The notes under the pieces were generated by a model that did no database searches, had not been told where the DNA came from, and saw nothing but the letters and a program-made list of their open reading frames with translations. DNA of 64,000 bases, from positions 1 through 64,000 of the forward strand of contig CACKCQ010000003.1 in assembly GCA_902598655.1 (NCBI GenBank). Reading direction: 5' to 3'. Shown here piece after piece: positions 4,450 to 34,170 of the stretch. The DNA is from an uncultured Pelagibacteraceae bacterium. Its GTDB lineage: Bacteria > Pseudomonadota > Alphaproteobacteria > Pelagibacterales > Pelagibacteraceae. Within the stretch, counting starts at the first letter, position 1, and each line of letters starts with the position of its first letter. Made by a program: the position numbers and the translations under genes.

Positions 4450-5493
4450 ATGAAAAAAAAAGCACTTATATTTGGCGTTACTGGTCAGGATGGATCTCTT
4501 TTAACAAGATTATTGTTAAAAAAAAATTATGAGGTCCATGGAGTAAAAAGAAGGTCTTCATCCTTTAATACTGGTAGAATAGATGATATTTTTAAAAAAG
4601 AAGGAAACAAAACTTTCTTTCTTCATTTTGGAGATCTTACAGACGCTTTAAACATTCAAGCACTAATAGCAAAAATTAAGCCAAATGAAATTTATAACTT
4701 GGGTGCACAGTCACATGTAAAAGTAAGTTTTGATACCCCAGAATATACGGCAAATGCTGATGCAATAGGAACTCTAAGAATATTGGAGTCAATAAGAGCA
4801 GCAGGACTATCAAAAAAAATAAAATTTTATCAAGCGTCTACATCTGAGATGTTTGGAAATAGTAAAAAATCCCAAAATGAAAATACTCCTTTTCATCCAG
4901 AGAGCCCATATGGAACTGCAAAATTATTTTCTTATTGGATTACTAGAAATTATAGATCTGCTTATGGTATGTTCGCAAGTAATGGAATTTTATTCAATCA
5001 CGAGGGTGAATACAGAGGAGAGACTTTTTTGACACGAAAGGTTACAATTGGAGTAGCTAGAATTTTTTTAAGGAAATCTAAATACATAACTCTTGGAAAT
5101 TTAAATGCCAAGAGGGACTGGGGAGATGCACAAGATTATGTTGAGGGAATGTATAAAATTTTACAACATAAAAATTCTGGTGACTTTGTTCTTGCTACAG
5201 GAAAAACCTATTCAGTGAGACAATTTATTGAAAATGCATTTGATTGTATAAATATTAAAATTAAATGGCGTGGCAAAGGATTAAATGAAGTTGGTTACGA
5301 TTCTAAAAACACAAAAAGAGTTCTTGTAAAAATTGATAAAAAATATTTTAGACCAAATGAAGTTAATCATTTGTTGGGTAGTTACAGAAAAGCAAAAAAA
5401 ATTCTTAAATGGGAACCAAAAATCACTTTTAAAAAAATGATAAAAAAAATGGTTCTAAATGATATCAATCTTCAAAAAAAAAGTAATCTTTAG
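4450..5493 (+). CDS. gmd: GDP-mannose 4,6-dehydratase
   Basis: Converts GDP-D-mannose to GDP-4-keto-6-deoxy-D-mannose in the cytosol. The 347-residue extended SDR has the Gmd N-terminus GVTGQDGS (9-16) and KRRSSSFNTGRI, the catalytic STSEMFG near 133 and Y-x3-K (YGTAK, about 154-158), plus NHEGEYRGETFLTRK, which is diagnostic of the family. Its product is the branch point for GDP-L-fucose (synthase at 12,241) and plausibly for the ColD-like dehydratase at 25,399. It lies 9 nt after the ABC exporter and converges with the next gene, overlapping it by 4 nt. Confidence 0.93.
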   Translation: MKKKALIFGVTGQDGSLLTRLLLKKNYEVHGVKRRSSSFNTGRIDDIFKKEGNKTFFLHFGDLTDALNIQALIAKIKPNEIYNLGAQSHVKVSFDTPEYTANADAIGTLRILESIRAAGLSKKIKFYQASTSEMFGNSKKSQNENTPFHPESPYGTAKLFSYWITRNYRSAYGMFASNGILFNHEGEYRGETFLTRKVTIGVARIFLRKSKYITLGNLNAKRDWGDAQDYVEGMYKILQHKNSGDFVLATGKTYSVRQFIENAFDCINIKIKWRGKGLNEVGYDSKNTKRVLVKIDKKYFRPNEVNHLLGSYRKAKKILKWEPKITFKKMIKKMVLNDINLQKKSNL

Positions 5494-25398: not shown

Positions 25399-26595
25399 AT
25401 GAAATATCCATTATTATCAAATGCTTTTTCTAGCAGGGATATAGCTGAAGGACAAAAAGTATTGAAAAGTAAACAAATTACAATGTCTCATAAAACAAAA
25501 ATTTTTGAGAAGAAATTTGCAAATTATATAAGATCTAAATACGCAATTATGGTTAATTCAGGATCTTCTGCAAACCTGCTAGCCTTTTCTTTGATGACCA
25601 ACCCGATGAGAAAAAATAGACTTAAACCAGGTGATGAAGTTATTATTCCTGTTGTGTGCTGGTCAACATCATTATGGCCAATTGTACAGCATGGTTTAAA
25701 ACCAATATTTGTTGATATCAGTTTAAGTAATCTAAATTTAGATTTAAAAAAACTGGAAAATTCAATCACAAAAAAAACAAAAGCAATTTTATGTGTTCAT
25801 GTTCTTGGCCTTTCTTCAAATATGATAAAATTATTAAAAATCGCAAAAAAATATAATTTGATAATAATAGAAGATACCTGTGAATCGTTTGGATCAAAAT
25901 ATAAAAATAAATTTCTTGGTACATTTGGAGACGTAGGAACATTTTCATTTTATTATTCACATCAAATAACCTCAGGAGAAGGAGGTATGATTATTTGTAA
26001 TAATATCAGAGATTATGAAATTTTATTATCCTTAAGATCACATGGTTGGGCTAGAGATAAATTCATATTAAAAAAATATAAAAAATATTATTCTAAGATC
26101 GATCCTAAATTTTTATTCGTAAATTCTGGATATAATTTGCGTCCAACAGAAATACAAGCGGCTTTAGTTCTTAGTCAATTTAAAAGAAAAAATATTTTTA
26201 AGAAGAATAGAAATTTTAATAGAAATCTAATAATTAAATTAGTTATAGAAGATAAAAAATATCAAAAGCAGATCAAATTTTTAAATGTTGAAAAAAATAT
26301 GGATCCAAGTTGGTTTGGATTAGCAATATTGGTTGATAAAAAATTCATAAACAAAAAAAAAAAATATTTAAAATTTCTAGAAAAAAAAGGAATAGAAACA
26401 AGACCAATAATTAGTGGTAATTTTATAAATCAACCTGCAATAAAATTATATGGTTTGAATAAAAAAAAATATAATTTTAATAATGCCCAGATGATTGAAA
26501 ATCAGGGATTTTTCATTGGCTTACATACTCAAAAAATGTCAAATAAATTAGCAGAATATGTATCTAAAAATTTACTAAAAATTAATGAAATTTAA
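25399..26595 (+). CDS. ColD-like PLP-dependent sugar-nucleotide 3-dehydratase (His replaces Lys)
   Basis: The 398-residue DegT-fold protein reads SFYYSHQITSGEGG (183-196) where aminotransferases have the Schiff-base lysine; H188 takes its place. ColD, the GDP-4-keto-6-deoxymannose 3-dehydratase of colitose synthesis, also has an active-site His at 188, as I recall its sequence. Other ColD-like segments are MVNSGSSANL (51-60), IIEDTCESFGS (156-166), SLRSHGWARD, GYNLRP and TRPIISGNF near 350-358. It would remove the C3 hydroxyl using PMP and glutamate. Its likely substrate is the Gmd product, made by the gene at 4450. It overlaps a reductase gene by 11 nt. Confidence 0.82.
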   Translation: MKYPLLSNAFSSRDIAEGQKVLKSKQITMSHKTKIFEKKFANYIRSKYAIMVNSGSSANLLAFSLMTNPMRKNRLKPGDEVIIPVVCWSTSLWPIVQHGLKPIFVDISLSNLNLDLKKLENSITKKTKAILCVHVLGLSSNMIKLLKIAKKYNLIIIEDTCESFGSKYKNKFLGTFGDVGTFSFYYSHQITSGEGGMIICNNIRDYEILLSLRSHGWARDKFILKKYKKYYSKIDPKFLFVNSGYNLRPTEIQAALVLSQFKRKNIFKKNRNFNRNLIIKLVIEDKKYQKQIKFLNVEKNMDPSWFGLAILVDKKFINKKKKYLKFLEKKGIETRPIISGNFINQPAIKLYGLNKKKYNFNNAQMIENQGFFIGLHTQKMSNKLAEYVSKNLLKINEI

Positions 26596-27424
26596 AAAAA
26601 TTGGTTTAACAGGCTCAACTGGTGTACTAGGACAATTTTTAAAAAAAAATTTTAAAAGCTATAAATTTGATACTTTTAATGGTGATTTAAGTTCTAAAAT
26701 TCAAATAAAAAAATGGATTAAAAACAAACAATTTGATGGTATTTTTCATTTGGCTGCAATTGTGCCAACTAATCAAGTAACAAAGAATCTAAAAAAGGCA
26801 ATAAAAGTAAATTATGAAGGTACAAAATTTTTAGTAGATGAGATAATTAAGCAAAAAACAACTAATTGGATCATTTTTACTTCCACTTCCCACGTTTATA
26901 ATTTTAGTAAAAAAAAAATTAAAGAAACCTCAAGAACAAAACCAATTAGCAAATATGGTTATACAAAACTTAAGGCTGAAAGATATATCTTAAAAAAAAA
27001 AAATAAGATAAAAGTTTGTATAGTAAGAATATTTAGTTATACTAACTATAATCAAAAAAATTCCTTTATTATTCCATCAATTTACGAAAAGTTTAATAGA
27101 GAAAAATCTGTTAAATTAGAAAATGTTAATCATTTTAGAGATTTTGTTGATATAAGGGATATTTTTTCGGCTTTTAAAATTTTATTTTTAAAAAAAAAAG
27201 AAGGTATTTATAATTTAGGTTCAGGGAAAAAAACATCATTATTAACAATAATTAAATTTTTTTCAAAAAAATTTAAGAAAGAATATAAAATAATAAATAA
27301 CAAAAAAACGACTACTCTTGTATCAGATAATAAAAAATTAATTAATATTGGGTGGAGACCAAAATTTAATTTATTCAGTACATTAAAAAAATTTTATATT
27401 CAAAAAAATATTACGAACGTTTAA
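26585..27424 (+). CDS. Extended SDR: NDP-sugar reductase/epimerase
   Basis: This 279-residue protein has the cofactor loop TGSTGVLG (9-16), HLAAIVPTN, STSHVYN and Y-x3-K in YGYTK (near 125-129), and IGWRP near the C-terminus as in other NDP-sugar SDRs. It is translationally coupled to the ColD-like gene (11 nt overlap), so it probably reduces the 4-keto-3,6-dideoxy product, the role of ColC in colitose synthesis. It is shorter than ColC (about 320), so loss of the C5-epimerase function is possible, which would give a D- rather than an L-sugar. Confidence 0.72.
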   Translation: MKFKKIGLTGSTGVLGQFLKKNFKSYKFDTFNGDLSSKIQIKKWIKNKQFDGIFHLAAIVPTNQVTKNLKKAIKVNYEGTKFLVDEIIKQKTTNWIIFTSTSHVYNFSKKKIKETSRTKPISKYGYTKLKAERYILKKKNKIKVCIVRIFSYTNYNQKNSFIIPSIYEKFNREKSVKLENVNHFRDFVDIRDIFSAFKILFLKKKEGIYNLGSGKKTSLLTIIKFFSKKFKKEYKIINNKKTTTLVSDNKKLINIGWRPKFNLFSTLKKFYIQKNITNV

Positions 27425-27425
27425 T

Positions 27426-28652
27426 TTAGTTTAGATATACTTTTTTTTGATTAACTTTTGAAAATAAAAATCTATCGATTTTACTACATATAAATTTAAG
27501 TTCATTTTCTTTCATACCATGATGGCAGCCTATCAAAATACCATTTTCCATTATATAATTGCTAACAGTATCACAGCCTTGGGTTTTTATAAATTTTTTC
27601 TTTTTCATCAGTGGCTGTTTTAAAATGTTCCCAGAAAAAATTACTCTCGTTTGAATATTATTTTTTTCCAAATACATTTGAAGATCATTTCTGTTAAAAA
27701 ATTTATTTGGTTTAATTATAAATGGATACGCTAACCAGCATGTTTTGATATATTTTTCTTGTTTTGGAATTTCAATTAGATTCTTATATTTTTTTAAGTG
27801 ATTTGATAATTTTTTAAAGTTCATATTTCTTTTTAAAAAATTTATCCTTAATTTTTTTATTTGCTCAATTGCAAATGCTGCTGAAAACTCTGAAGGAATA
27901 AAATTATATCCAAATTCCAAAAAAATATATTTTTTGTCATAATTAATCTTTAATTTATCTTTTTTAAATCTTTTTTTTATATTTTCATTTTCATTATATA
28001 TAGCCGAAGATCTTCCCCAGGCCCTTAAAACCTTTGCTTTTTCGTAAAATTTTTTATCATTAAAACAGACCATCCCACCAAAACCTGCACCAGTAACAAT
28101 GTGAGATGCATAGAAACTTGTTGTGACAATATCTGAATAATAACCTGTAGTTTTGCCTCTGATTTTATAACCAATTGTATCTGCAGAATCTTCGATTAAA
28201 AAAATCTTTTTTTTTTTACATAATTTTTTAATTTTGTCCCAGTCTGGAATATTTCCAAGTAGGTTAGGAATAAACATAGCTTTTGTTTTTTTATTTATAG
28301 CTTTCTTTATTTGATTTAAATCAGCAACATATTTATCTTTTTCTACATCTACAAATTTAGGTATTAAACCTAATTGATAAATTGGTGCAACTGTAGTTGA
28401 AAAAGTTAGTGTTGGAGTAATTATTTCAGATCCTTTTTTTAAGTTTAAAGAGGCTAGTGCTAGTAAATTGGCCGAAGATCCAGAATTTACCATCAATGCA
28501 AATTTTTTGCCAAAAATTTTTGATACAATATTCTCTAATTTTTTAACATTTTTTCCATCCATTAAACTTAATGGATTTTTTTTTAAAACATTAGTTGCTG
28601 CAGCAATTTCATTTTTACCATAGACTGCTTTTGCATAGAATATTTTTTTCAT
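27426..28652 (-). CDS. RfbH/AscC-like (E1) NDP-4-keto-6-deoxyhexose 3-dehydratase, His replaces Lys
   Basis: The 408-residue DegT-fold protein carries SFYASHIVTGAGFGG (179-193); H184 sits where aminotransferases have the PLP lysine, as in the E1 dehydratases of 3,6-dideoxyhexose synthesis. LIEDSADTIG (152-161), RAWGR, YNFIPSEFSAAF and TRVIFSGNILKQP (near 345-357) also match the RfbH group. E1 enzymes normally need a [2Fe-2S] reductase partner (E3, AscD/RfbI); no such gene is in this window. It overlaps the RmlC-like gene by 4 nt in a minus-strand operon with rmlA and rmlB, suggesting a dTDP-bound substrate. Confidence 0.8.
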   Translation of the reverse strand: MKKIFYAKAVYGKNEIAAATNVLKKNPLSLMDGKNVKKLENIVSKIFGKKFALMVNSGSSANLLALASLNLKKGSEIITPTLTFSTTVAPIYQLGLIPKFVDVEKDKYVADLNQIKKAINKKTKAMFIPNLLGNIPDWDKIKKLCKKKKIFLIEDSADTIGYKIRGKTTGYYSDIVTTSFYASHIVTGAGFGGMVCFNDKKFYEKAKVLRAWGRSSAIYNENENIKKRFKKDKLKINYDKKYIFLEFGYNFIPSEFSAAFAIEQIKKLRINFLKRNMNFKKLSNHLKKYKNLIEIPKQEKYIKTCWLAYPFIIKPNKFFNRNDLQMYLEKNNIQTRVIFSGNILKQPLMKKKKFIKTQGCDTVSNYIMENGILIGCHHGMKENELKFICSKIDRFLFSKVNQKKVYLN

Positions 28653-29182
28653 AAATATTTATACCTTTTTAAAAAATTATTTAAGCTTAAATTTTTTTTA
28701 TCTTTATTTGATATAATATATTTTTTTTTATTCAATTTTAGATTTAGTTTATTGTCAAAAAAATCTATTCCCATTTCATCTTTTTTAGACCTCATGGATG
28801 TATTTTTGTATAATACGATATTCTCATCACCTATGGCTATGAATCCATGAGCAAAGCCTGCTGGGACATATAGTGACATGCCATTTTTAGAAGATAAATT
28901 TTTTTTAAAAATTTTTAAAAAAGTTTTTGAATTATTTCTTAAATCTAAGCAATAGTCGATTATTTCTCCTTTTAAAACAATAATTAATTTATCTTGTTGA
29001 TTATTTTTTTGAAAATGAAGTCCTCTAAGAGTATTTTTTTTTGATAAAGAGTAATACTCAAATATAAATTTTTTATTTATAATCTTATTTTTAAATATTT
29101 CTCTTAAGTAGCCTCTATTATCAAAAAAATTTTTTGATTTTAAAATAAATAAATCTTTAAATTTAGTTTTAATTTTTTCCAT
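28649..29182 (-). CDS. RmlC-like cupin: dTDP-4-keto-6-deoxyglucose epimerase, atypical
   Basis: The 177-residue protein has the RmlC fold motifs FDNRGYLREIF (20-30), LRGLHFQ (52-58, with the catalytic base H56), DKLIIVLKGEIIDYCLDLR and YVPAGFAHGF (104-113). The usual C-terminal signature with a catalytic acid Tyr before the Glu (Y-x-P-x-x-E) reads MRSKKDE (130-136), so the Tyr appears to be replaced by R131. It may therefore be a single-position epimerase, as AscE is in ascarylose synthesis, or act on another keto sugar. It lies between the E1-like dehydratase and an SDR (overlaps 4 and 14 nt). Confidence 0.8.
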   Translation of the reverse strand: MEKIKTKFKDLFILKSKNFFDNRGYLREIFKNKIINKKFIFEYYSLSKKNTLRGLHFQKNNQQDKLIIVLKGEIIDYCLDLRNNSKTFLKIFKKNLSSKNGMSLYVPAGFAHGFIAIGDENIVLYKNTSMRSKKDEMGIDFFDNKLNLKLNKKKYIISNKDKKNLSLNNFLKRYKYL

Positions 29183-30029
29183 TTATTATTCTCTCAAAAT
29201 CTTTTTCTATAAAATTTTTTTGCTTCCAGAATGGAAGTTTTTTAAGATTAAGATTAATTATATGATGTCGATTTCTCATTTGTTTCATTTTAATTTTTTT
29301 TGGTTTATTCTTATTAAAATCAATAATTAAATTTCTAATATCTGAAAAATTTTTTGATTTTATTTGGTACGAGTTAGGTTTAATCTTTTTTGTTATAATT
29401 ATATTAATTGCTTCTGAAATATCATCTATATGAAGAAAGTTTAATTTAAGATTTGAATACGATAAAAGGACCTGCTTATTCTGATGATAATTTTTTTTAA
29501 TAATTGGAATAATTTTATTTCTTTGATCATTATAGGAATAGCTTTCGTAGAATTTAAGATTATAAAATGAAATATTTAAATATTTTTTTTTAAAATATTC
29601 TAATAATGTCTCCAGTGATCTTTTGCTACTTGCATATAAATTATAAGGGAAAAATTCATTGTTATTATAGTGTTCATGCATTGTACCTACAGTAATTACC
29701 TTTTTAAGATGAAATTTATTAAGTTCATTAAGTAATATTGATGGAAATTTAATATTTGATTCAATTATTCTCTCGAGGTTTTTACTGTCATTTAGTTTTG
29801 TATAATGTGTTGCAAAATTTATAAAAAAATCAAAATTTATTTTAAATAAATTTTTATTAAATTTATTATTATTAAATAAATAGTATTTTATATTTTTATG
29901 TTTTATTAAATTTTTTTTATTTTTTTTTTTATTTCTAAATATTACAAAAAAATGGTAAAAATCTTTATATTTATTGAGAAAATTTTTTCCTATAAATCCC
30001 GTGCCACCTGTTAATAATATTTTTTTCAC
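29169..30029 (-). CDS. Extended SDR: NDP-4-ketosugar reductase candidate
   Basis: The 286-residue protein has the cofactor loop TGGTGFIG (7-14), FATHYT, GTMHEHY (with Thr in the Ser position) and Y-x3-K in YASSK (near 131-135). This pattern recalls abequose/ascarylose-type reductases (RfbJ, AscF), which act last in 3,6-dideoxyhexose synthesis. It is packed with rmlA (4 nt overlap) and the RmlC-like gene (14 nt overlap). RmlD, which would make rhamnose, is not seen in this window and this protein does not look like it. Confidence 0.7.
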   Translation of the reverse strand: MKKILLTGGTGFIGKNFLNKYKDFYHFFVIFRNKKKNKKNLIKHKNIKYYLFNNNKFNKNLFKINFDFFINFATHYTKLNDSKNLERIIESNIKFPSILLNELNKFHLKKVITVGTMHEHYNNNEFFPYNLYASSKRSLETLLEYFKKKYLNISFYNLKFYESYSYNDQRNKIIPIIKKNYHQNKQVLLSYSNLKLNFLHIDDISEAINIIITKKIKPNSYQIKSKNFSDIRNLIIDFNKNKPKKIKMKQMRNRHHIINLNLKKLPFWKQKNFIEKDFERIINGKN

Positions 30030-30892
30030 TTTATTAAACTTTCTAAGTATTTACTGTACGAAGAATTTCTATAAAATTTAATAGCCTCTTTTAATTGTAT
30101 TTTATTTATCCAGTTTTTCGAAAACGAGATTTCTTCAAGACAAGCAATTTTAAATCCTTGTCTTTTCTCTAAATTATAAACAAAATTTCCTGCTTCAAAT
30201 ACTCCTTCTGGAGTTCCAGTATCTAGCCACGCAGCGCCCCTGCCTAATACATGATAATTAAGTTTATTTTTTTTTAAATATATATTTAAAAGATCAATTA
30301 TTTCAGTTTCATTTCTCTTTGATTTTGTGAGATTATTTGTTAATTTTGAGACTGATTTATCAAAAAAATATAAACCGCTTATTGCTAAATCTGATTTAGT
30401 TTTTTTTGGTTTTTCTTTTAAAGAAATTATTTTTTTATTTTTTATTAATGCAACACCAAAATCATTTGGATTTTTAACTTTGTAACAAAATATTTTTGCA
30501 CCTTTAAATTTTTTTTTGGAATTTATAAGTAGTTCAGAAAGTCCTTGACCGTAAAAAAAATTATCACCCAAAATTAAAGCTACGTTATTAGACCCAATGA
30601 ATTCTTTGCCAATCAAAAATGCCTCTGGTATACCGGTTGGTTTATTTTGTATTTTATATTCTATTTTTGTTCCGAACCTTTCACCATTCCCCAAAAGAAG
30701 CTGGTACCTTTTTAAATCGTTTTTGTTGACAATAATCAGTATTTCTCGAATATTTGCCAACATCAATATTGACAAAGGATAATATATTAATGGTTTATCA
30801 AATATCGGTAATAAGTGTTTATTAGTTGATTTTGTTAAAGGATATAGTCTAGAACCTTTCCCTCCAGCTAACAATATTCCTTTAAACTTCAT
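30026..30892 (-). CDS. rmlA: Glucose-1-phosphate thymidylyltransferase
   Basis: Makes dTDP-glucose from dTTP and glucose-1-phosphate. The 288-residue protein has LLAGGKGSRLYPLT (7-20), KPLIYYPLS, QNKPTGIPEA, LILGDNFFYG (near 107-116) and WLDTGTPEG (near 224-232), all diagnostic of RmlA. It overlaps rmlB by 11 nt and the downstream reductase by 4 nt. Length matches the family (about 290). Confidence 0.93.
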   Translation of the reverse strand: MKFKGILLAGGKGSRLYPLTKSTNKHLLPIFDKPLIYYPLSILMLANIREILIIVNKNDLKRYQLLLGNGERFGTKIEYKIQNKPTGIPEAFLIGKEFIGSNNVALILGDNFFYGQGLSELLINSKKKFKGAKIFCYKVKNPNDFGVALIKNKKIISLKEKPKKTKSDLAISGLYFFDKSVSKLTNNLTKSKRNETEIIDLLNIYLKKNKLNYHVLGRGAAWLDTGTPEGVFEAGNFVYNLEKRQGFKIACLEEISFSKNWINKIQLKEAIKFYRNSSYSKYLESLIK

Positions 30893-31889
30893 TTTTACCT
30901 AGTCGTATATCCTTGTATTTTTTTCTAATTGTTTGGAGCCAATCATAATTTTTATTATACCATTTTATTGTCTTAACAATACCTTTTGTAAATTTAGTTT
31001 TATTTTTCCATTTAAATTTATTTTTAAATTTTCTAGAATTTAAAGCATATCTGAAGTCGTGTCCTGGTCTATCTTTAACAAATAGTATATTTTTGTAAGG
31101 ACTGGCTAAATTATTTAAAATTATTTTAAGTGTCTTGAGGTTTGATATCCTTTCATTACTTCCAATATTATAAATTGTCTGGTTAGTAAATTTTTTTATT
31201 ACTTTGTGTATAGCTTCACAAGTATCTTCCACATATATCCATTCTCTAATATTTTCTCCTCTTCCGTATAAAGGGATTTTTTTTTTATCAAAACCTCTTA
31301 AAATACTTTTAGGTATAAATTTTTCTGGATGTTGATAAGGACCATAATTATTTGTTATCCTCAAAATGCAAACATTAATATTGAAAGTTTCTGAATATGA
31401 TTGAGCAATACTCTCGCTAGATGCTTTGGAGCTCGAGTAAGGAGAGCTTGTGTAAACCATTGAATTTTCTTTAAAGGAACCTTTTTTAATTGAGCCGTAA
31501 ACTTCATCGGTAGAAATATGAATAACTTTTGTTAATAATTTTGTTTTTTTATTTAGATTTCTTAAAGTTTCGTATAAGGCTAAATTAGATTTTACGTTAT
31601 TTAAATAAAATTTTAATGGTCCATCAATAGACCTATCAACATGGCTCTCCGCTGCAAGGTGAATAATAAAGTGAAAGTTTTTCTTTAATAATTTATTTAA
31701 TTTTAATTTGTTACTTATATCGAATTTATAAAAAAAGTAATTTTTACTTTGGGGCTTGAATTTTTCTGGAGTTGAAACATCAGATATTTTATCAACATTG
31801 TGAACTATATAGCCTTTGTTTATCAGATGATTAACCAAATTTGTTCCTATAAAACCTGATCCTCCAGTAATTAATACACTTTTTTTCAT
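30882..31889 (-). CDS. rmlB: dTDP-glucose 4,6-dehydratase
   Basis: Converts dTDP-glucose to dTDP-4-keto-6-deoxyglucose. The 335-residue extended SDR carries TGGSGFIG (8-15), LAAESHVDRSI (near 76-86), STDEVYG (with the catalytic Asp-Glu pair), Y-x3-K in YSSSK and TNNYGPYQHPEKFIP, all RmlB hallmarks. It follows the frameshifted GT2 gene with a 4-nt overlap and precedes rmlA. The product can feed the RmlC-like protein and E1-like dehydratase downstream. Confidence 0.93.
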   Translation of the reverse strand: MKKSVLITGGSGFIGTNLVNHLINKGYIVHNVDKISDVSTPEKFKPQSKNYFFYKFDISNKLKLNKLLKKNFHFIIHLAAESHVDRSIDGPLKFYLNNVKSNLALYETLRNLNKKTKLLTKVIHISTDEVYGSIKKGSFKENSMVYTSSPYSSSKASSESIAQSYSETFNINVCILRITNNYGPYQHPEKFIPKSILRGFDKKKIPLYGRGENIREWIYVEDTCEAIHKVIKKFTNQTIYNIGSNERISNLKTLKIILNNLASPYKNILFVKDRPGHDFRYALNSRKFKNKFKWKNKTKFTKGIVKTIKWYNKNYDWLQTIRKKYKDIRLGKNEV

Positions 31890-32591
31890 TTAAACAGACT
31901 TTTTATTATTTCATTTATAAATTTAAGTGAATAAATAAAATGATATGAAGATTTTTCATTTCTGTAATAAGTTTTAATTGGAACTTCCAAAATATTTTTT
32001 TTCATTTTTATATATTTGATTCTCATTTGATTATCAAAATTAAACCCATTATCTAAATTATTTATCTTTATTTGCCTTACTGTTTTTAAATTATAAATCC
32101 ATAAACCTGTATGAGCATCTGTAAAATTTGTTTTAAATATTATGTTAAAAAGTTTTGTTAAAATAAAATTACCTAACCATTTATATAAAGGCATTTTACC
32201 ATTTAATGCATCTTTTGGTTTCATCATTCTAGAACCAGTAACAGCATCAGAATTTGTTCTAACTATTTTTTTATACAATGAATATATATATCTACAGTCA
32301 TATTGATTATCTCCGTGTATCATCACGGCGTATTTATAATTTTTTTTTAATGCATATTTTAAGCACTTTTTTACATTTCCACCATATCCTAAATTAAATT
32401 TATTTATATTGATTAAAATCCCTTTTCTTTTTTTTGGGAAAATAAACTGATGTATTATCTGTCGAACAATCATCACTTATTAGAATATCAAAACTTATTC
32501 TATTTTTTAAATTAAAAAGTTTTTTGCATATATGTTTTAATCTAAATGACGAATTATATGTCACGACGAAAACTAACAGATCTTTTTTCAT
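31886..32591 (-). pseudogene. Family 2 glycosyltransferase split by a frameshift
   Basis: Two frames together make one DPM-synthase-like GT2. The first (32,400-32,591) gives LVFVVTYNSSFRLKHI and ILISDDCSTDNT; the second (31,886 onward) continues with NLGYGGNVKKCLKYA, VMIHGDNQYD (DxD-type motif), VTGSRM and FTDAHTGLW. Both read through the same T8 run at about 32,428-32,435 (A8 on the coding strand), each giving PKK after it, so a change of one base in that run joins them. Possible causes are mutation, slippage or a sequencing error. It would be the first gene of the rmlB-rmlA operon. Confidence 0.78.
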
Positions 32592-34050: not shown

Positions 34051-34170
34051 TTGCCTGGTAATTTTTGCGAAAGGGTAATACCCGATCCCATTCCGAACTC
34101 GGAAGTCAAGCCTTTCAGCGCCGATGGTACTTTGTCTTAAGACATGGAAGAGTAGGACATTGCCAGGCTA
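34051..34170 (+). rRNA. rrf: 5S ribosomal RNA, unlinked from 16S-23S
   Basis: The segment of about 120 nt has complementary ends (tgcctgg / ccaggca) forming helix I, and the highly conserved central stretch CCCGATCCCATTCCGAACTC with GGAAGT, typical of bacterial 5S rRNA. No 23S gene precedes it; instead a polysaccharide island of more than 33 kb does. This agrees with SAR11 genomes, where hypervariable region 2 separates 23S from 5S. Ends are accurate to a few bases. Confidence 0.95.

Follow-up and report, generated by a model that had tools for sequence, protein, structure and literature searches.

What does a SAR11 bacterium make from deoxythymidine diphosphate (dTDP)-4-keto-6-deoxyglucose when rmlA, rmlB and rmlC share an operon with a sugar 3-dehydratase and rmlD is not visible? 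The question is raised by a locus on contig CACKCQ010000003.1 (assembly GCA_902598655.1) of an uncultured Pelagibacteraceae bacterium. The window, that is, the whole stretch of DNA analysed, comprises positions 1 to 64,000 of this contig. The original prediction had described an rmlB-rmlA-reductase-rmlC-dehydratase operon, and the open reading frames (ORFs), their overlaps and their NCBIfam names bear it out. The order, from 31889 to 27426, is rmlB-rmlA-short-chain dehydrogenase/reductase (SDR)-rmlC-dehydratase, all on the minus strand, with overlaps of 4-14 bases between adjacent ORFs.

27426 to 28652, minus strand: E1L, an iron-sulphur (Fe-S)-free, His-type (H184) nucleoside diphosphate (NDP)-4-keto-6-deoxyhexose 3-dehydratase with the DegT/DnrJ/EryC1 fold, 408 residues
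28649 to 29182, minus strand: RmlC-like epimerase, 177 residues; retains His, the first Tyr and Asp but has Arg for the second Tyr
29169 to 30029, minus strand: SDR, probable 4-keto reductase, 286 residues; YxxxK kept, without the Asp-Glu of RmlB
30026 to 30892, minus strand: RmlA, glucose-1-phosphate thymidylyltransferase (NCBIfam TIGR01207)
30882 to 31889, minus strand: RmlB, dTDP-glucose 4,6-dehydratase (NCBIfam TIGR01181)
31886 to 32476, minus strand: family 2 glycosyltransferase (GT2) ORF heading the operon, its N-terminus absent in its frame

The answer we lean towards, with rather more confidence than doubt, is that this operon supplies the O-chain with a dTDP-3,6-dideoxyhexose. E1L would act as an Fe-S-free, hydrolytic dTDP-4-keto-6-deoxyglucose 3-dehydratase, from a SAR11 branch that probably moved to dTDP from cytidine diphosphate (CDP) sugars. 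The system is a real, unusual variant, and the earlier interpretation as a whole is partly supported.

Like E1 (AscC/RfbH, the CDP-4-keto-6-deoxyglucose 3-dehydratase) and ColD (the guanosine diphosphate (GDP)-4-keto-6-deoxymannose 3-dehydratase), E1L has a histidine in place of the aminotransferase lysine. His184 aligns with the catalytic His of both enzymes, so the predicted His-for-Lys exchange was correct. Among solved structures E1L comes closest in sequence to E1, at 196 bits, followed by ColD at 171 bits, and it shares the WGR and KRF motifs with E1. However, the four cysteines that bind the [2Fe-2S] cluster of E1 are Ala, Ser, Ile and Ile in E1L. Matches to E1L at E ≤ 1e-60 were found in 57 of 397 genomes of the order, its own included, and the other 56 were fetched; three loci (L109-L111) were of E1 or ColD type and were excluded, leaving 53 SAR11 relatives. 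The His is kept in all 53 and none has a Cys at any of the four ligand positions. E1-type proteins from fetched genomes carry all four Cys in 20 of 20 cases (18 of 18 from a phylum search, and both from SAR11, L109 and L111), as does the E1 in the PDB. The alignments show that E1L lacks the Fe-S cluster ligands. According to the parts of PMC8987622 that deal with these enzymes, E1 and SpnQ receive electrons via Fe-S clusters, and ColD hydrolyses its hexoseen-pyridoxamine phosphate (PMP) intermediate, glutamate restoring PMP. Because an Fe-S electron route is hardly possible without the ligands, we infer ColD-like hydrolysis for E1L.

The RfbH/AscC-like identity that had been proposed for E1L was not supported. 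In addition to the missing ligands, E1L scores 314.2 bits with the RfbH family NF011936, below the cut-off of 423, and it lies on a different branch of the tree. The 53 relatives fall into clade A (35, plus the window), clade B (16) and a separate branch of two from another SAR11 family (L098 and L103). The tree was built with IQ-TREE from 72 rows, among them 20 of the 36 clade A rows; SpnQ is not in it. The phylum search contributed 19 loci besides the window, of which L134 was dropped as it had no E1-type ORF, and L055 (41% over 50 residues) was left out. Support is 100/100 for the Fe-S-free lineage, 100/100 for E1 and 99/78 for ColD. Three ColD rows fall outside the Fe-S-free clade on long branches, on which both the rooting and the placement of ColD depend. 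As judged from these alignments, the Fe-S-free enzymes are a separate, strongly supported lineage and not part of the RfbH/AscC branch. The window's own branch (clade A with L098 and L103, 100/99) is placed among branches that hold rfb-linked members (93/82).

More distant relatives belong to the same picture. Five plasmid relatives, from Roseibium, Leisingera, Palleronia, Ensifer and Sinorhizobium (about 42-44%), lack the ligands, except that Sinorhizobium has the first Cys, which is also present in ColD. Three of the five regions are annotated rfbF-rfbG-dehydratase, and the other two show adjoining rfbG similarity. Alphaproteobacterial plasmids (L138, L140, L141) carry modules of rfbF, rfbG, an Fe-S-free dehydratase, a methyltransferase and a reductase, with the dehydratase annotated as an aminotransferase. 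The Rhodococcus and Embleya relatives retain the first Cys alone. Neither rfb nor rml genes turned up in the neighbourhood of these two, a weak check for Embleya (L143) because the ORF filter lost even the dehydratase gene in its GC-rich DNA. A phage origin was considered and rejected: there was one weak match to a phage record, and six viral contigs matched at 29-37%, four of them with all four Cys, none a close relative.

Which nucleotide carries the sugar? Gene context differs between the two clades. Within 4 kb, rmlA or rmlB is found in 15 of 35 clade A relatives versus 0 of 16 in clade B (Fisher p 0.002), and an RfbF-like cluster in 0 of 35 versus 8 of 16 (p 2e-5), two of the eight (L100, L105) matching the RfbF profile in part only; these p-values count related genomes as independent and are indicative only. 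Several fetched stretches stop at contig edges, so neighbours may be missing. Any of rmlA, rmlB or rmlC lies within 4 kb in 19 of 35 clade A relatives, and in L098 and L103 an RmlB-like gene adjoins E1L (399 bits in L098, cut-off 365). In clade B, 10 of 16 genomes have an RfbG match immediately next to the dehydratase; in clade A, none of the 36 has one on the same contig at a distance of 11 kb or less. Two clade B loci were checked by name: in L096 RfbF is the best name but below its cut-off and RfbG is above, and in L104 the name is RfbG. Similarity to rfbG also adjoins 16 of the 18 E1-type loci of the phylum search.

Genome-wide, RmlA is matched in 28 of 36 genomes of clade A, in 10 of 16 of clade B and in 9 of 20 without E1L (p 0.02, clade A versus none), the 20 being among the most complete and not a random draw. 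For full-length RfbF the corresponding counts are 4 of 36, 9 of 16 and 3 of 20; for RfbG they are 14 of 36 in clade A and 13 of 16 in clade B. The window's source assembly (29 contigs, 1.09 Mb, completeness 86.6%) has no match to RfbF (E ≤ 1e-40) or RfbG (E ≤ 1e-60), and the operon's RmlA is its sole RmlA match (E ≤ 1e-60). Sister genome G259 likewise has RmlA, with RfbF and RfbG unmatched. Residues 162 (Tyr/Ala) and 182 (Ala/Gly) split the window's branch (38 of 38) from clade B and the plasmid relatives (21 of 21); residue 182 is two before His184, and positions 31, 32, 191, 242 and 252 separate the same sets. Such residues point to carrier or sugar choice, without proving it.

The strongest rival to a dTDP carrier is that E1L is Fe-S-free yet acts on CDP-4-keto-6-deoxyglucose, while the rml genes, with the SDR standing in for RmlD, make a sugar like L-rhamnose. 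It would account for the sister branches that adjoin rfbF-rfbG, for five genomes with rmlA-SDR-rmlC and no E1L, and for the eight clade A genomes in which RmlA is unmatched, five of which carry RfbG. We nevertheless regard it as unlikely: RfbF and RfbG are unmatched in the window's genome, residues close to the active-site His are fixed in a form peculiar to the window's branch, and E1L lies inside the rml genes of relatives, between the SDR and rmlC in eight and between rmlA and rmlC in two. A dTDP carrier for E1L is likely, and the possible dTDP-3,6-dideoxy sugar of the original prediction is supported by the operon, by the repeated linkage to rmlA, rmlB and rmlC in relatives and by the lack of rfbF and rfbG matches here. 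Its premise that E1 routes are known only on CDP was incorrect, as SpnQ uses a dTDP sugar (described in part of PMC8987622). At some loci of clade B and of E1 type, RfbG and the dehydratase are accompanied by a split transketolase (L104:10233-11865) or an acetolactate-synthase-like enzyme (L109:3696-5504); L096 and L111 belong to this group of loci. Such pairings suggest that SAR11 makes branched 3,6-dideoxy sugars on CDP, perhaps resembling yersiniose.

The rml genes are assigned as follows. RmlA (360.6 bits, cut-off 360.65), RmlB (340.7, cut-off 365.1) and RmlC (TIGR01221, 145.1, cut-off 155.75) each have the expected family as best NCBIfam name, slightly below the curated cut-off. RmlB scores far lower with the CDP family (92.8 bits), and RmlB from the four SAR11 relatives tested is above the NCBIfam cut-off. 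RmlC retains the His, Tyr and Asp that we take to be catalytic, and could on these residues serve as a C5-epimerase. Its second active-site Tyr is Arg, as in 17 of 21 SAR11 RmlC proteins (L145-L165) from genomes without E1L. As originally noted, no RmlD was found, here within the 86.6%-complete genome: a search gave six weak matches, of which the best reaches 54 bits (cut-off 224); five are the window's own SDR genes and one lies on contig C25. Among 77 SAR11 genomes none exceeds the RmlD cut-off, which may be overly strict for this group given that 10 of them match at E ≤ 1e-30. Several SAR11 genomes, some with E1L and some without, have a short SDR of 232-240 residues after rmlC (L062:11572-12279; L059:7785-8486; L145-L150, L159). 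Two that were tested match RmlD_sub_bind, and this protein may be the RmlD substitute in SAR11.

The SDR of the operon had been called an abequose/ascarylose-type reductase, a name that neither NCBIfam nor the PDB returned for it. YxxxK is present in 16 of 16 members of its group and TMH stands at the Asp-Glu position of RmlB; it is therefore a reductase or epimerase, not a 4,6-dehydratase. It was found in 25 of the 397 genomes of the order. E1L occurs in 16 of these 25 versus 41 of the other 372, and the SDR sits in the E1L locus in 14 of the 16 and apart from it in two (G119, G359). In nine genomes the SDR occurs without E1L, as rmlA-SDR-rmlC in five and rmlA-rmlC-SDR in one. With nine such genomes, and two in which it lies away from E1L, the SDR was discarded as a pathway marker. 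Its role is probably that of a general reductase of the 4-keto group in RmlC products, the route being made 3-deoxy by E1L.

We propose the following pathway. From their families, RmlA and RmlB would give dTDP-4-keto-6-deoxyglucose. E1L would bind PMP, and His184 would deprotonate the PMP-sugar Schiff base so that the C3 hydroxyl departs. Hydrolysis of the enamine would yield dTDP-4-keto-3,6-dideoxyglucose and ammonia, and PMP would be rebuilt from pyridoxal phosphate (PLP) by glutamate, as in ColD, with neither Fe-S cluster nor E3. RmlC would then invert C5 and the SDR reduce C4. As C2 is kept from glucose and C5 inverted, the predicted product is dTDP-L-ascarylose (3-deoxy-L-rhamnose) or its C4 epimer. 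AscE has the role of C5-epimerase in ascarylose synthesis; the ascarylose pathway would be reassembled on a thymidine carrier. The lineage probably started on CDP sugars, and this SAR11 branch would have switched carrier. A pathway on GDP in Campylobacter jejuni uses a C3-dehydratase (PLP, glutamate), a C5-epimerase and a C4-reductase in the same step order, as set out in part of PMC10440746.

Several points weigh against this pathway. In the fold search E1 came first (Z 44.9, rmsd 3.1, 370 residues aligned) and several Lys-type aminotransferases just below (up to Z 43.1), all ahead of ColD (Z 41.8, rmsd 4.0, 361 aligned, about 31% identity in the structural alignment). The fold is for this reason uninformative on hydrolysis, and the search was rejected as a diagnostic. 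The E1L model has a pLDDT of 80.7, with residues 182-190, including His184, below 50. Since the SDR occurs in nine genomes without E1L, five of them as rmlA-SDR-rmlC, it is unspecific to the deoxy sugar and the rml genes are workable without E1L. The Arg of RmlC, once considered a mark of a 3-deoxy substrate, was rejected as such because the RmlC proteins mentioned above share it, so that it is not tied to E1L. No rmlA, rmlB or rmlC lies within 4 kb in 16 of 35 clade A relatives, some of them at contig ends. In clade A, RmlA is unmatched in eight of 36 genomes; as five of the eight carry RfbG, the carrier switch may not be strict and some relatives may use CDP sugars. Finally, the window's genome is incomplete.

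There is a slim chance that E1L instead forms a dTDP-4-amino sugar, either as a dual enzyme or as one resembling a C4-aminotransferase, as SpnQ does without its reductase. The fold is common to sugar aminotransferases, and SpnQ, which bears the His, transaminates with PLP and glutamate, but E1 and ColD did not under those conditions (both stated in the same part of PMC8987622). His replaces Lys in 53 of 53 relatives, and RmlC and the SDR would be roleless if the product were an amino sugar.

We consider it quite improbable that E1L is a second ColD acting on GDP-4-keto-6-deoxymannose. GDP-mannose 4,6-dehydratase (GMD) is encoded within the cluster and a ColD-like gene is adjacent, as follows.

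4450 to 5493, plus strand: GMD, substrate source for the ColD-like enzyme (505.6 bits, cut-off 415)
25399 to 26595, plus strand: His-type 3-dehydratase resembling ColD, with GDP-4-keto-6-deoxymannose as its probable substrate; convergent with E1L
26585 to 27424, plus strand: SDR following the ColD-like gene, ColC-like by position only

This neighbour, at 266 bits to ColD versus 207 to E1, can itself fill the role, whereas E1L is closer to E1 than to ColD in bits and travels with rml genes. The presence of ColD-like and RfbH-like genes within 3.3 kb, noted originally, is real; with a ColD-like neighbour and GMD encoded in one cluster, the bacterium likely makes a GDP-3,6-dideoxy sugar too.

That E1L is a true E1-type enzyme on a borrowed ferredoxin, like SpnQ, is hardly credible: E1 is its closest solved fold and small ferredoxin-like ORFs occur in these genomes, but the four ligands are absent from it and from all 53 SAR11 relatives. 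With no [2Fe-2S] ligands, no E3 reductase is expected, and the lack of a visible one, earlier seen as a puzzle, is accounted for. A genome-wide Fer2 search gave two matches, ORFs of 125 and 679 residues, neither E3-like. No E3-like Fer2 ORF was seen in the 57 genomes, which are incomplete. Their Fer2 ORFs have 106-181, 478-500 or 647-841 residues, plus three of 296, 348 and 421 residues that match solely the profile part seen in proteins of about 680 residues and are presumably cut NuoG. Two of the 57 genomes (G124, G125) have a Cys-bearing E1-type protein with no E3 seen, so E3 absence by itself is weak evidence.

The window comes from SAR11: a single-cell genome of the Pelagibacteraceae holds the nearest named relative of the dehydratase, at 91% identity. 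A landmark lies beyond the operon.

34054 to 34168, plus strand: 5S rRNA, which commonly borders the SAR11 O-chain cluster

The head of the operon lies 2.2 kb from this gene, on the low-GC side; in the window GC is 20-24% up to 36 kb and 28-31% past it. Its surroundings match the position and composition of the SAR11 O-chain cluster, which is very diverse, as described in parts of PMC11898729; a word search of the main text of that paper found no occurrence of rml, rhamnose, dehydratase or aminotransferase. The GT2 at 31886-32590 is split over two frames, its first ~52 residues matching the sister protein in the other frame (32433-32588), by a natural break or a sequencing error.

We found no dTDP-3,6-dideoxyhexose pathway, Fe-S-free E1 or SAR11 3,6-dideoxy sugar in searches of listings of open-access papers, and the portions of PMC8184846 and PMC2800850 consulted held nothing bearing on the pathway. 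If our reading is true, C3-deoxygenation of glucose-derived nucleotide sugars is possible without the Fe-S chemistry of E1, a deoxysugar pathway can change its nucleotide carrier, and abundant ocean bacteria produce 3,6-dideoxy sugars. These sugars are best known from enteric bacteria. Residues 162 and 182, exceptionless between branches, open the carrier question to direct test. The wider claim, for which we see the case as evenly balanced, is that of a third, Fe-S-free lineage of NDP-sugar 3-dehydratases beside E1/SpnQ and ColD, one SAR11 branch of which went from CDP to dTDP and, with RmlC and the SDR, makes dTDP-3,6-dideoxy-L-hexoses.

Among known systems, E1 is the top sequence and fold match of E1L in solved structures and has the same catalytic His and the WGR and KRF motifs; E1L differs in the absence of the Cys ligands, in an E3 that was not found, in its separate clade and in its dTDP gene context. 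Like ColD, it has the catalytic His and no Fe-S cluster, and hydrolysis with PMP and glutamate, followed by epimerase and reductase, would be expected by analogy with ColD and the C. jejuni GDP-heptose C3-dehydratases. Unlike ColD, to which it has the low identity given above, it belongs to a separate clade, and the carrier of ColD is GDP. With SpnQ, the dTDP-4-keto-2,6-dideoxyglucose 3-dehydratase, it has in common the His and, as the gene context of E1L would predict, the dTDP carrier. SpnQ has a [2Fe-2S] motif, which E1L lacks, is driven by ferredoxin or flavodoxin and acts on a substrate already deoxygenated at C2 (from the portion of PMC8987622 on SpnQ). The RmlABCD pathway to dTDP-L-rhamnose has RmlA, RmlB and RmlC in common with this operon, in which E1L and another SDR are found in place of RmlD.

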